A stretch of 64,000 nucleotides of DNA from Streptomyces sp. RerS4. GTDB lineage: Bacteria > Actinomycetota > Actinomycetes > Streptomycetales > Streptomycetaceae. This document shows, in pieces, positions 26,457 to 29,625 of this stretch (its first letter is position 1; each line of letters starts with the position of its first letter). The stretch covers positions 1,862,001-1,926,000 of the forward strand of contig NZ_CP097322.1 of the NCBI RefSeq assembly GCF_023515955.1. The letters run 5' to 3'. The notes below the pieces were generated by a model. That model ran no database searches. It was given only the letters and a program-made list of their open reading frames with translations, and was not told the origin of the DNA. The position numbers were made by a program, and so were the translations under genes.

Positions 26457-27722
26457 CTAACCGGCGACGGCCCGTGGTCGCGAACCGGTCTCATGTGCCG
26501 GTCCCGCCGGCTTTCGCTCCGCCGTACGGGACTCCCGCCGCGACAGGGCCAGGACGACGCCCCCCGCGCCCGCCGCGAGCAGCGCGCACAACGGCCACAG
26601 CAGGCCCGGCGCGGCCGCGTACAGCGCTCCGCCCAGGGGCGGGCCGAGGACGACCCCGCTGACGGAGACCCCGGCATAGAGGCTCTGGAAGCGCCCGACG
26701 GCGTGCTCGGGGGCCTGGTCCGCCACGTAGGCGGTGGCGGTGGTCTTGTACAGGATCTCGCCGAGACTCAGGAGCACCATCATCGCGACGGCGGTGGCGA
26801 CCCCCGCACCCGCGATCAGCGCCGCGTACCCGGCTCCGACCAGCACCAGCCCGCTCCCGATCACCGCCAGCGGGGGCCTGGCGCGCAGGGCGACGGCGGC
26901 GGGCAGCTCCAGCAGCAGGATCACGGCGCCGTTGAGGGCGATGACCAGGCCGAAGGCGCGTACGTCGAGCCCGTGGTCGGCGAGGAAGACCGGGAAGACG
27001 GAGTACTGCTGGCGGTAGACCACGTCCACGACGAGGATCGCGGCGAGCAGCACCGGTACGGCGGGCCGCGCGCGCAGCGCCGCGAGGAGCCCGCCGCCCC
27101 CACCTGGTTCCTCGTCCCCGCCGGCGGCCCGGCGGGCGGCGCCGCGGGCGGGGACGACGCGGGCGGTCCAGAAGGCGAAGAAGAGGGTGCCGACCCCGTC
27201 GGCGACGAAGAGCCAGTCGTACGAGAGCCCGGCGGCGACCAGCGCCCCGAGCGGCGGCCCGAGGGTGAAGCCACCGTTGGACACGCACCGCACGACGGCG
27301 AAGGCCTGCCGGCGCGCGCCCTCGGGGACGGTGACCGCCACCAGCGCGGAGTTCGCGGCGCGCACCACCCCGGACGCGTACTGGGCCAGCGGCAGGGCCG
27401 CGTAGAGCAGCGGCGTCGGCAGCAGCGGGAAGCTCGTCAGGGTCAGTCCGCCGAGCGCCGAGGCGGCGAGCAGGACGCGGCGGTGGCCGAACCGGTCCCC
27501 GTACCAGCCGCCCGTGAAGTTGCCCGCGACCAGGCCGATGCCGCCGATGCCGGTGACCACGCCCGCCTGCGCGGCGCCGAGGCCGCGCGGGCCGGTCAGG
27601 TAGAGGAAGACGAAGACGAAGGTGAAGCTGACGACGGCGTTGACGAAAACCCCCGCGGCCAGCAGCCACACGACCCTCGGTATGTCCTTGAACCCCTGCA
27701 TGTCCTTGAACCCTTGCCGCAC
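26457..27722 (-). CDS. MFS efflux transporter
   Basis: About 421 residues with twelve predicted membrane helices. MFS-type features include GGWYGDRFGHRRVLL (the loop 2-3 motif GxxxDRFGRR) and DHA-family features. Putative multidrug/proton antiporter. The start is uncertain: GTG 27722 (preferred, GGGGGA at a good distance) or ATG 27701. An 18-base duplication makes the N-terminus read RQGFKDMQGFKD, so both start sites lie on copies of the same sequence. It is divergent from the HxlR-peroxiredoxin fusion across two palindromes, which makes it the probable target of that regulator. dapD follows after 9 bases. Confidence 0.85.
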   Translation of the reverse strand: MRQGFKDMQGFKDIPRVVWLLAAGVFVNAVVSFTFVFVFLYLTGPRGLGAAQAGVVTGIGGIGLVAGNFTGGWYGDRFGHRRVLLAASALGGLTLTSFPLLPTPLLYAALPLAQYASGVVRAANSALVAVTVPEGARRQAFAVVRCVSNGGFTLGPPLGALVAAGLSYDWLFVADGVGTLFFAFWTARVVPARGAARRAAGGDEEPGGGGGLLAALRARPAVPVLLAAILVVDVVYRQQYSVFPVFLADHGLDVRAFGLVIALNGAVILLLELPAAVALRARPPLAVIGSGLVLVGAGYAALIAGAGVATAVAMMVLLSLGEILYKTTATAYVADQAPEHAVGRFQSLYAGVSVSGVVLGPPLGGALYAAAPGLLWPLCALLAAGAGGVVLALSRRESRTAERKPAGPAHETGSRPRAVAG

Positions 27723-27751
27723 ACCCGTGTCCCCCGCGTCCTTCGCAGTGA

Positions 27752-27766
27752 GTTCCCTTTGGGAAC
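27752..27766. promoter_or_regulatory. Palindrome 1 between MFS and HxlR-peroxiredoxin genes
   Basis: GTTCCC-TTT-GGGAAC, a perfect 6-bp inverted repeat with a 3-base centre, 30 bases upstream of the MFS GTG and 48 upstream of the regulator ATG. Candidate operator for the HxlR domain. Confidence 0.6.
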
Positions 27767-27772
27767 GGACTA

Positions 27773-27785
27773 TGTCAGCATGACA
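27773..27785. promoter_or_regulatory. Palindrome 2 between MFS and HxlR-peroxiredoxin genes
   Basis: TGTCA-GCA-TGACA, a perfect 5-bp inverted repeat whose centre is 20 bases from that of palindrome 1, two helical turns on the same DNA face. It lies just upstream of the regulator ribosome site AAAGGAG (27802-27808). Confidence 0.55.
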
Positions 27786-27813
27786 GCCTGGGGTCAACGG
27801 ACAAAGGAGTGCC

Positions 27814-28689
27814 ATGGCCCAGCGCAACCGACTCGGCGAGGCGGACTGCTCCATCGCCCAGGCCCTCGACGTCGTGGGCGACTGGTGGACGCTGCTGATC
27901 GTGCGCGACACCGCGCGCGGCCTGTCCCGCTTCGACGAGCTCCAGCGCGAACTCGGCGTGTCCCGCAAGGTGCTCGCCGAGCGGCTGAAACTGCTGGTCG
28001 AGGCCGGGGTGCTGACGCGCGAGCCGTACCAGGAGCGTCCGGTGCGGCACGCCTACCGGCTGACCCCGCGCGGGCGGGGGCTGCTGCCGGTCCTGGTGGC
28101 CCTCCAGGACTGGGGTGACACCTGGGTCCTGGGAGACGGAGAGATGACGGCGACGACGGACGAGTCCTCGAAGGAGGCGGTACGGGTCCACGCGCTGCGC
28201 GGCGCCCGACTGCCCGAGCTGCTCCTGCCGGACCGTTTCGGCGAACTGCGCGACCCGGTGGCGGACACGCCGTTCACCGTCCTGTACTGCTTCCCGGGCG
28301 CGTACGCACGGGCAGCGTCCTACCCGCCCGGCTGGGCGGAGATCCCCGGCGCGCGGGGCTGTACGTTCGAGTCGTGCACCTACCGCGACCAGCTCGCGGA
28401 GTTCACCGCGGCCGGCGCCACCGTGCACGGGATCTCCACCCAGCGCCCGGACGAGCAGCGGGAGTTCGCGGAGAAGGAGGGGCTGCGCTTCCCGTTGCTG
28501 TCGGACGCGGGACTGGACCTGGTGACGGCGCTGCGGCTGCCGACGTTCCGCGCGGCCGGGGTGAGCCGGCTCAAGCGGTTGACGCTGGTCGTGGACCGGG
28601 AGCGGACGGTGCGCGAGGTGCTCTACCCGATCCGGGACGTCGAGGCGAGCGTGACGGCGGCCCTGGCGGCGGTGCGGGCCGCGCACTGA
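27814..28689 (+). CDS. HxlR-type repressor fused to a BCP/PrxQ-like peroxiredoxin
   Basis: 291 residues. Residues 1-108 are an HxlR winged helix (CSIAQALDVVGDWWTLLIVRD, SRKVLAERLKLL, RPVRHAYRLTPRG) with the family's N-terminal cysteine, Cys12. Residues 122-291 are a thioredoxin-fold redoxin: VLYCFPGAY, IPGARGCTFESCTYRD with Cys183 and Cys188 in the exact C-T-x-x-x-C arrangement of BCP-type peroxiredoxins, and HGISTQRPDEQREFAEKEGLRFPLLSD. ATG follows AAAGGAG. The design suggests a regulator that reads peroxide or thiol stress through its own peroxidase domain and controls the divergent MFS pump; this is inference. HxlR members YodB and HypR are known thiol sensors. Confidence 0.88.
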   Translation: MAQRNRLGEADCSIAQALDVVGDWWTLLIVRDTARGLSRFDELQRELGVSRKVLAERLKLLVEAGVLTREPYQERPVRHAYRLTPRGRGLLPVLVALQDWGDTWVLGDGEMTATTDESSKEAVRVHALRGARLPELLLPDRFGELRDPVADTPFTVLYCFPGAYARAASYPPGWAEIPGARGCTFESCTYRDQLAEFTAAGATVHGISTQRPDEQREFAEKEGLRFPLLSDAGLDLVTALRLPTFRAAGVSRLKRLTLVVDRERTVREVLYPIRDVEASVTAALAAVRAAH

Positions 28690-28728: not shown

Positions 28729-29265
28729 TCAGGCGTTCGCGAGCACCCGCCCCAGGACCTCCCGCGCGTACGCCTCCTCGTACGGGGCGTCCGTGAGCAG
28801 CACCTGAAGGCTGATCCCGTCCATCACGGCCACCAGCGCCCGCGCCGTCACAGGGTCGGCGTACGGCTCCAGGAGCTTCGCCACCGCCTCGTGCCACCGG
28901 GCCGCGACCGGCCGCAGCGCGGGCCGTCGCAGGGCGGCGAGGTAGAGCTCGTACTCCAGCTCGGCCCGGCCCCGGTCCGCCGTCAGCATCTCCCGCAGCA
29001 GCCGCGCGAGGGCGCCGGCGAGGTCTTCTCCGGCGTGGAGCACGAGCGGCGGGGCGTAGGCCTCGCTCGCCTGGTTCAGGGCGGCGACGAGGAGTTCGTC
29101 GAGGGTCGTGAAGTGGTAGGTGGTCGAGCCCAGCGGCACGTCCGCCTCCGCCGCCACGCTGCGGTGGCTCAGCCCGGCGATGCCCCGCGCGGCGACCACG
29201 CGCATCGCCGCGTCGATGATCCGCTGCCGGCGGTCGGGGTCGTAGCGGCGCGCGCCGGGGGCCAT
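28729..29265 (-). CDS. TetR-family regulator linked to an SMR pump
   Basis: 178 residues. N-terminal TetR helix-turn-helix: RQRIIDAAMRVVAARGIAGLSHRSVAAEADVPLGSTTYHF (about 13-52). The C-terminal ligand domain is all helical (LLREMLTADRGRAELEYELYLAAL). Its ATG overlaps the SMR stop codon by one base (TGATG), so the two are translationally coupled in an SMR-tetR operon. It probably autorepresses by binding the palindrome over the SMR start. Confidence 0.88.
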   Translation of the reverse strand: MAPGARRYDPDRRQRIIDAAMRVVAARGIAGLSHRSVAAEADVPLGSTTYHFTTLDELLVAALNQASEAYAPPLVLHAGEDLAGALARLLREMLTADRGRAELEYELYLAALRRPALRPVAARWHEAVAKLLEPYADPVTARALVAVMDGISLQVLLTDAPYEEAYAREVLGRVLANA

Positions 29266-29588
29266 CAGTGGGTCGCCCCGCCCAGGTTGAGCAGGACCAC
29301 ACCGGCGATGACCAGCGCGATTCCGGCGATCTTCGCGGCGGTGGCGGCCTCGCCCAGGAAGACCATGCCGATCGCGGCGATGGCCGCGGTCCCGACGCCG
29401 GCCCAGATCGCGTATGCCGTGCCCACCGACATCGACTTCAGCGTCTGGGCGAGCAGCGTGAAGGCGATGGCGTAGCCGAGCAGCGTCCCCAGCGAGGGCC
29501 ACAGCCTGGTGAAGCCGTCGCTGTACTTCATGGCGGTGGTTCCGGCGACCTCGGCGGCGATGGCCGCGGCAAGCAGTACGTAGGGCAT
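29265..29588 (-). CDS. Small multidrug resistance (SMR/EmrE-type) transporter
   Basis: 107 residues with four transmembrane helices. Essential Glu13 lies in helix 1 (AAEVAGTTAMK, equivalent to EmrE Glu14). The family stretches AYAIWAGVGTAAIAAIG and LVIAGVVLLNLGG are present. It functions as a dimer exchanging protons for cationic drugs or guanidinium. The start ATG at 29588 (MPYVLL) lies inside the left arm of a 42-bp palindrome. An upstream GTG/ATG at 29606 would extend through the palindrome and is less likely. Confidence 0.9.
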   Translation of the reverse strand: MPYVLLAAAIAAEVAGTTAMKYSDGFTRLWPSLGTLLGYAIAFTLLAQTLKSMSVGTAYAIWAGVGTAAIAAIGMVFLGEAATAAKIAGIALVIAGVVLLNLGGATH

Positions 29589-29625
29589 GCGTACAACTGT
29601 ACACATGCCCTACGTACACCTGTAC
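29576..29625. promoter_or_regulatory. 42-bp near-perfect palindrome with nested TetR-type sites
   Basis: Outer 14-base arms at 29576-29589 and 29604-29617 (GTACGTAGGGCATG and its exact complement) flank a 14-base centre. The centre itself contains GTACA-AC-TGTAC (29591-29602). A second copy, GTACA-CC-TGTAC, follows at 29614-29625, 23 bases away. The left arm includes the SMR start codon and the right arm is its mirror image on the other strand. The GTACAnnTGTAC pair is the probable operator for the TetR protein. Confidence 0.75.

Follow-up and report, generated by a model that had tools for sequence, protein, structure and literature searches.

The DUF24 (HxlR) regulator YodB responds to quinones and diamide through its N-terminal Cys6 (PMC8063818), and within the same family HypR acts as an activator and YodB and CatR act as repressors (PMC10458429). 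YodB, CatR, HypR, and QsrR are single-domain proteins of ~110 aa that combine a winged helix, a reactive N-terminal cysteine, and a palindromic operator, and that control stress-detoxification genes; where a second cysteine is present, it lies inside the HxlR fold. To our knowledge, no DUF24 thiol regulator carries a peroxiredoxin (Prx) domain. A peroxidase can nevertheless pass oxidation to a transcription factor in a two-protein relay, as in yeast Orp1-Yap1. Human Prx2-STAT3 is another such relay (PMC7481202).

In the window (the whole 64,000-nucleotide stretch of Streptomyces sp. RerS4 DNA analyzed here), a single ORF with an ATG start, preceded by a ribosome-binding-like AAAGGAG (27803-27809), encodes a protein that resembles these DUF24 regulators in its winged helix, N-terminal cysteine, and palindromic operator but is 291 aa long and continues into an AhpC/TSA domain (Table 1). 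We read this protein as an autoregulating one-component thiol-oxidant sensor that usually controls a divergent exporter, and we put the probability of this reading at about one-half. The preliminary description had proposed that an HxlR and a redoxin domain are joined in this frame, with cysteines at positions 12, 183, and 188 (CTFESC); the ORF and the Pfam matches agree on the fusion, and all three cysteines are where they had been placed. The N-terminal half scores 84 bits against PF01638 (cut-off 20.8), which places it in the HxlR family, and its closest solved relatives are 4gcv and 2f2e (PA1607). The codon of Cys12 (27847-27849) lies just N-terminal of this domain. The C-terminal half matches AhpC-TSA (E 3e-13) and, over residues 183-268, Redoxin (E 8e-7), and a Foldseek search with it returned M. 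tuberculosis BcpB (5epf) as the best match (E 1.1e-11, TM 0.87 by target length), which identifies a peroxiredoxin fold. The AlphaFold2 model has a pLDDT of 85.5 and a pTM of 0.82, with values below 50 for residues 1-15, the stretch that holds Cys12. We found no description of an HxlR or other helix-turn-helix protein fused to a peroxiredoxin in the open-access literature searched.

Table 1. Positions of the features discussed in the text (window coordinates unless a locus is named)
Feature	Position	Strand	Details
HxlR-peroxiredoxin fusion gene	27814..28689	+	291 aa; Cys12, Cys183, Cys188, Arg255; compared across 108 fusions
HxlR (DUF24) winged-helix domain, residues 20-105	27871..28128	+	Pfam PF01638 E 6e-24
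Peroxiredoxin-fold domain, residues 125-291	28186..28686	+	Pfam AhpC-TSA 181-268, AF2 model, Foldseek
Candidate operator GTGAGTTCCCTTTGGGAACGGAC (first palindrome and flanks)	27748..27770	.	Conserved in 81/81 close and 27/27 further intact fusions
Second palindrome TGTCAGCATGACA	27773..27785	.	Inside promoter sequence; perfect arms in 20/81
Probable -10 (TATGTC) of fusion gene, part of ACTATGnCAGCATG block	27771..27776	+	Conserved block; inferred
Probable MFS promoter	27769..27797	-	-35 TTGACC (27797-27792), 17-nt spacer, -10 CATAGT (27774-27769)
Divergent MFS exporter-like gene	26457..27722	-	421 aa from GTG 27722; ATG 27701 also possible; Pfam MFS_1 E 6e-42
MerR-Prx reading frames	L127:3434-4393; L173-L181		Continuous frame

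A search for this architecture across actinomycetes showed that it is real and widespread. Scanning genome contigs, we found 80 loci, a number beyond chance, with a fusion at 76-92% identity; 79 carry the name Streptomyces and one is labeled 'Actinobacteria bacterium'. Sampling of relatives and of the class yielded further fusions, of ~50-60% identity, in other families (f72, of the same order, and f78, f102, f86, and f7), which brought the collection to 108 fusions from several actinobacterial families. Occurrence is patchy: at the thresholds used, the fusion was found in 19 of 61 relatives and in 21 of 395 class members, two of which (L159 and L160) are not intact fusions. Purifying selection acts on both domains (dN/dS ~0.17 for HxlR and ~0.27 for Prx), and in a tree of Prx domains a branch with support of 94 parts all fusions from a form linked to a MerR regulator and from stand-alone relatives, the latter found in other classes of the phylum. 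In one fusion (L113:3809-4711), seven consecutive Phe stand where the recognition-helix region should be (RFEDLRFFFFFFFLVLAERL), which is either a sequencing error or an odd insertion. At another locus (L159:3005-3544, genome G696), a Prx-only gene without an HxlR domain occupies the same place, divergent from an MFS gene; it keeps both Prx cysteines and has an operator-like sequence upstream, read in frame as QFLFGTDYG. Judging from this gene, the Prx domain may be able to act alone.

Two operators had been proposed for the intergenic region, and only the first holds up. GTTCCC-TTT-GGGAAC (27752-27766, center 27759) and TGTCA-GCA-TGACA (center 27779) are both exact palindromes with centers 20 bases apart, as originally described, and each pattern class is expected by chance 0.02-0.03 times per window. 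When 81 upstream regions (the 80 loci and the window) were aligned on the first palindrome, they yielded GTnAGTTCC-N5-GGAACnnACTATGnCAGCATG, beyond which conservation drops; the consensus of the conserved site is GTnAGTTCC-N5-GGAACnnAC. The arms of the first palindrome have 0-1 mismatch in 74 of the 81 regions, as against 35 for the second. The second palindrome spans the conserved ACTATGnCAGCATG block, but its symmetry is rarely perfect even though the sequence is conserved, and we therefore rejected it as a second operator; it is mostly core-promoter sequence. In the 27 further intact fusions, the best upstream site scores 12-16 of 16 (other windows of the same loci average ~9 and reach at most 12), and more than 10 of them have tandem copies. 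Judged by its conservation, the first palindrome would be the palindromic operator expected of an HxlR/DUF24 regulator. A search of the genome with the 23-mer found no other site with 0-1 mismatch; because the genome holds a single near-perfect site, the protein is likely a local regulator. We rejected a genome-wide regulon, as there was no second convincing site and weak matches were about as many as for a control pattern. In a Streptomyces subclade (L124, L125, L126, and L158), tandem operators lie 20-42 bases before the start of the fusion gene, which is divergent from an enolase gene.

The position of the site relative to the promoters bears on how it might act. It precedes the probable -10 element of the fusion gene; in f72 and in L154, TATACT stands at the equivalent place, after the operator and with a GTG start only a few bases further on, which puts the operator ahead of the -10 element of a probably leaderless gene. 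On the minus strand, TTGACC-N17/18-CATAGT fits an MFS promoter, with the operator just downstream of its probable -10 element. Both placements are typical of repression. They argue against the protein being an activator that, like HypR or HxlR in Bacillus, switches the exporter on when oxidized, which we regard as very unlikely despite the precedent of activating DUF24 members such as HypR (PMC10458429) and the fact that a site between -35 and -10 elements could serve activation with a distorted spacer. The MFS -35 box is found in 63 of the 68 loci with an intact MFS gene versus 6 of the 12 without one (Fisher p 0.001, uncorrected for relatedness), and unlike this box, the operator is present in all 80 loci.

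Release of an efflux pump had been proposed as the core function of the system, and this claim stands only in part. The fusion gene is divergent from the MFS gene, as described, and it usually faces an exporter gene elsewhere, the family of which differs by lineage. An intact MFS gene of the same type (type A) is divergent from the fusion in 68 of the 80 Streptomyces loci and in L156, and it is lost or swapped elsewhere. Other divergent partners are an MFS_3-type gene (f72, L151, L152, L154, and L155), an ABC-2 exporter pair (L121, L122, L150, and L153), an enolase gene (L124-L126 and L158), and a MOSC gene (L157); dapD takes this place, with no pump, in L112, L113, and L161, and in some lineages the fusion is paired with nothing evident. 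As the divergent partner changes between lineages while the operator stays, the operator follows the fusion. The 12 loci that lack an intact MFS gene keep both operator and fusion, which indicates that autoregulation is the constant feature and the target the variable one. Compared in this way, the loci suggest that the controlled function varies among lineages, with export the commonest. The MFS protein of the window has a weak likeness to drug:H+ antiporter models, and a sequence search for solved relatives that might point to the exporter's substrate returned no match. Two further neighbors were seen. In L123, the gene of a PNPOx-type flavoenzyme (1196-1831) follows directly downstream in the same orientation; its first bases overlap the end of the fusion gene, and the two may form an operon. 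In the window, a TetR-family gene (28729-29265, minus strand) overlaps an SMR/EmrE-type efflux gene (29265-29606, minus strand), forming a second regulator-exporter pair that is beside the fusion in most Streptomyces loci.

The Prx domain has the fold, the Cp-T-x3-Cr spacing (in the window protein), and the catalytic Arg of the PrxQ/BCP proteins, among them M. tuberculosis BcpB, Xanthomonas PrxQ, and C. glutamicum PrxQ. It differs from them in lacking PxxxT/SxxC, in frequently having lost the resolving cysteine (Cr), and in its attached DNA-binding domain. The PrxQ motif is P-x3-(T/S)-[P/F]-x-Cp (PMC5811025), whereas the window protein reads FPGAYARAASYPPGWAEIPGARGCT: Ala180 occupies position Cp-3, where the canonical catalytic Thr/Ser is expected, and a long segment inserted between Pro161 and Cys183 breaks the motif, leaving Pro161 22 residues N-terminal of Cp. 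NCBIfam equivalogs for PrxQ and thiol peroxidase give 40 bits, far under their cut-offs of 140-260. We therefore rejected a textbook PrxQ identity and claim no PrxQ membership, and of the BCP/PrxQ cysteine pair that had been proposed, the spacing of Cys183 and Cys188 is exact in the window protein but the preceding motif departs and Cys188 is repeatedly lost. Because of Ala180, the peroxidase activity of the domain is uncertain. The stand-alone Prx subfamily (L083-L110; IPGARGCTPQSC) shares the departure (YPxTGRPG..LPxGWDxIPGARGCTPQSC), with Ala at Cp-3 in 28/28; we looked for a solved structure of this subfamily and found none.

Ala180 and the interrupted motif (PMC5811025), together with the recurrent loss of Cys188 and a partner that is usually a drug-exporter-like pump, would fit a Prx fold that has become a noncatalytic module for ligand binding or oligomerization, with the exporter's substrate (e.g., an antibiotic or a metabolite) rather than an oxidant as the inducer. 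We consider this unlikely. Cys183, Thr184, and Arg255, which the alignment marks as the putative catalytic Arg near the C terminus, are unchanged in all 136 fused and stand-alone sequences, and a pure binding domain needs no catalytic cysteine; enolase and MOSC genes are also among the partners.

Within the fusions, the putative peroxidatic Cys183 and the HxlR sensor Cys12 are, like Thr184 and Arg255, present in 108/108. Cys188, the presumed resolving residue at Cp+5, is kept in 83 of the 108; the other 25 have R, S, G, L, or T there, which requires at least four independent changes on the Prx tree. In five fusions (L123, L125, L154, L155, and L158), the entire protein contains just two cysteines, the equivalents of Cys12 and Cys183, a pattern consistent with a one-Cys sensor that pairs with either Cys12 or an external thiol. 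The invariance of Cys12 was rejected as proof of a relay: an N-terminal cysteine is typical of HxlR proteins in general and occurs in 8/9 complete HxlR proteins of this genome.

The generality of this cysteine is also compatible with a bifunctional protein without a relay, in which the HxlR domain would sense electrophiles or quinones through Cys12, like YodB, while the Prx domain would be an enzyme for clearing the peroxide that comes with them, made in proportion through autoregulation. The invariance of the catalytic Cys, Thr184, Pro161, and Arg255 in fused and stand-alone forms and the Prx-only gene of L159 point the same way. Against this, a local regulator that represses its own gene would be ill suited to bulk peroxide removal, repeated loss of the resolving cysteine lowers the likelihood of efficient turnover, and the Prx subfamily is also joined to a second type of regulator, MerR. 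We find a relay-free enzyme rather doubtful.

The reading that we prefer, an autoregulating thiol-oxidant sensor, builds on what comparison of the loci reveals: the fusion, its conserved operator, the invariant residues, and the changing partner. Because relatives in several actinobacterial families retain the switch and both Cys12 and Cys183 despite exchange of the pump, the comparison suggests a self-contained and apparently undescribed oxidation sensor. From here we infer repression, an oxidant as the signal, and a relay from Cys183 to Cys12. The reduced homodimer would bind the operator and repress its own gene and, where present, that of the exporter. A peroxide, an organic hydroperoxide, or another thiol oxidant would attack Cys183. 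Cys188, if the protein has one, could then resolve the oxidized Cys183, as could a low-molecular-weight thiol or, directly, Cys12 in the HxlR half; resolution would distort the dimer and free the DNA, so that Prx oxidation would drive the repressor within the same polypeptide. The proposed logic is that of Orp1-Yap1 and Prx2-STAT3, with sensor and regulator placed in one polypeptide and the relay itself conjectural.

If this is true, the protein would bring the Orp1-Yap1 principle into a single bacterial molecule, in which a repressor reads a peroxidase without a partner protein and the peroxidase part supplies speed and specificity. In bacteria that make antibiotics, it would couple the sensing of oxidants to export. 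The natural two-cysteine versions make direct oxidation of a transcription-factor cysteine by a Prx cysteine testable with two point mutants, and the circuit, with its small size and single site, could be put to use as a peroxide biosensor.

In other Streptomyces, one unbroken reading frame joins a MerR regulator to a Prx of the same subfamily; this combination was found in 12 of 150 Streptomyces genomes (E below 1e-50), and we found no description of it in the open-access literature searched. MerR replaces HxlR in these proteins, which retain both Prx cysteines, and the frame is preceded by a regulator-type promoter of its own with a MerR-like dyad (TTGACCTTGCCC...GGGCAAGGTTTAG). A Met at the MerR-Prx junction could allow internal initiation. 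On the evidence of the Prx tree, the MerR-linked form apparently arose separately from the HxlR fusion, and the joining of two regulator families to this Prx subfamily supports a sensing role for it. The most specific version of our reading, which we hold only tentatively, is a single-polypeptide relay from peroxidase to transcription factor in which a one-Cys peroxiredoxin would be resolved by the sensor cysteine of the HxlR repressor to which it is fused; this Prx subfamily would have been recruited a second time, as the sensor of a MerR protein. In L127, a gene for a Sap/GAP-type membrane protein adjoins the MerR-Prx gene.
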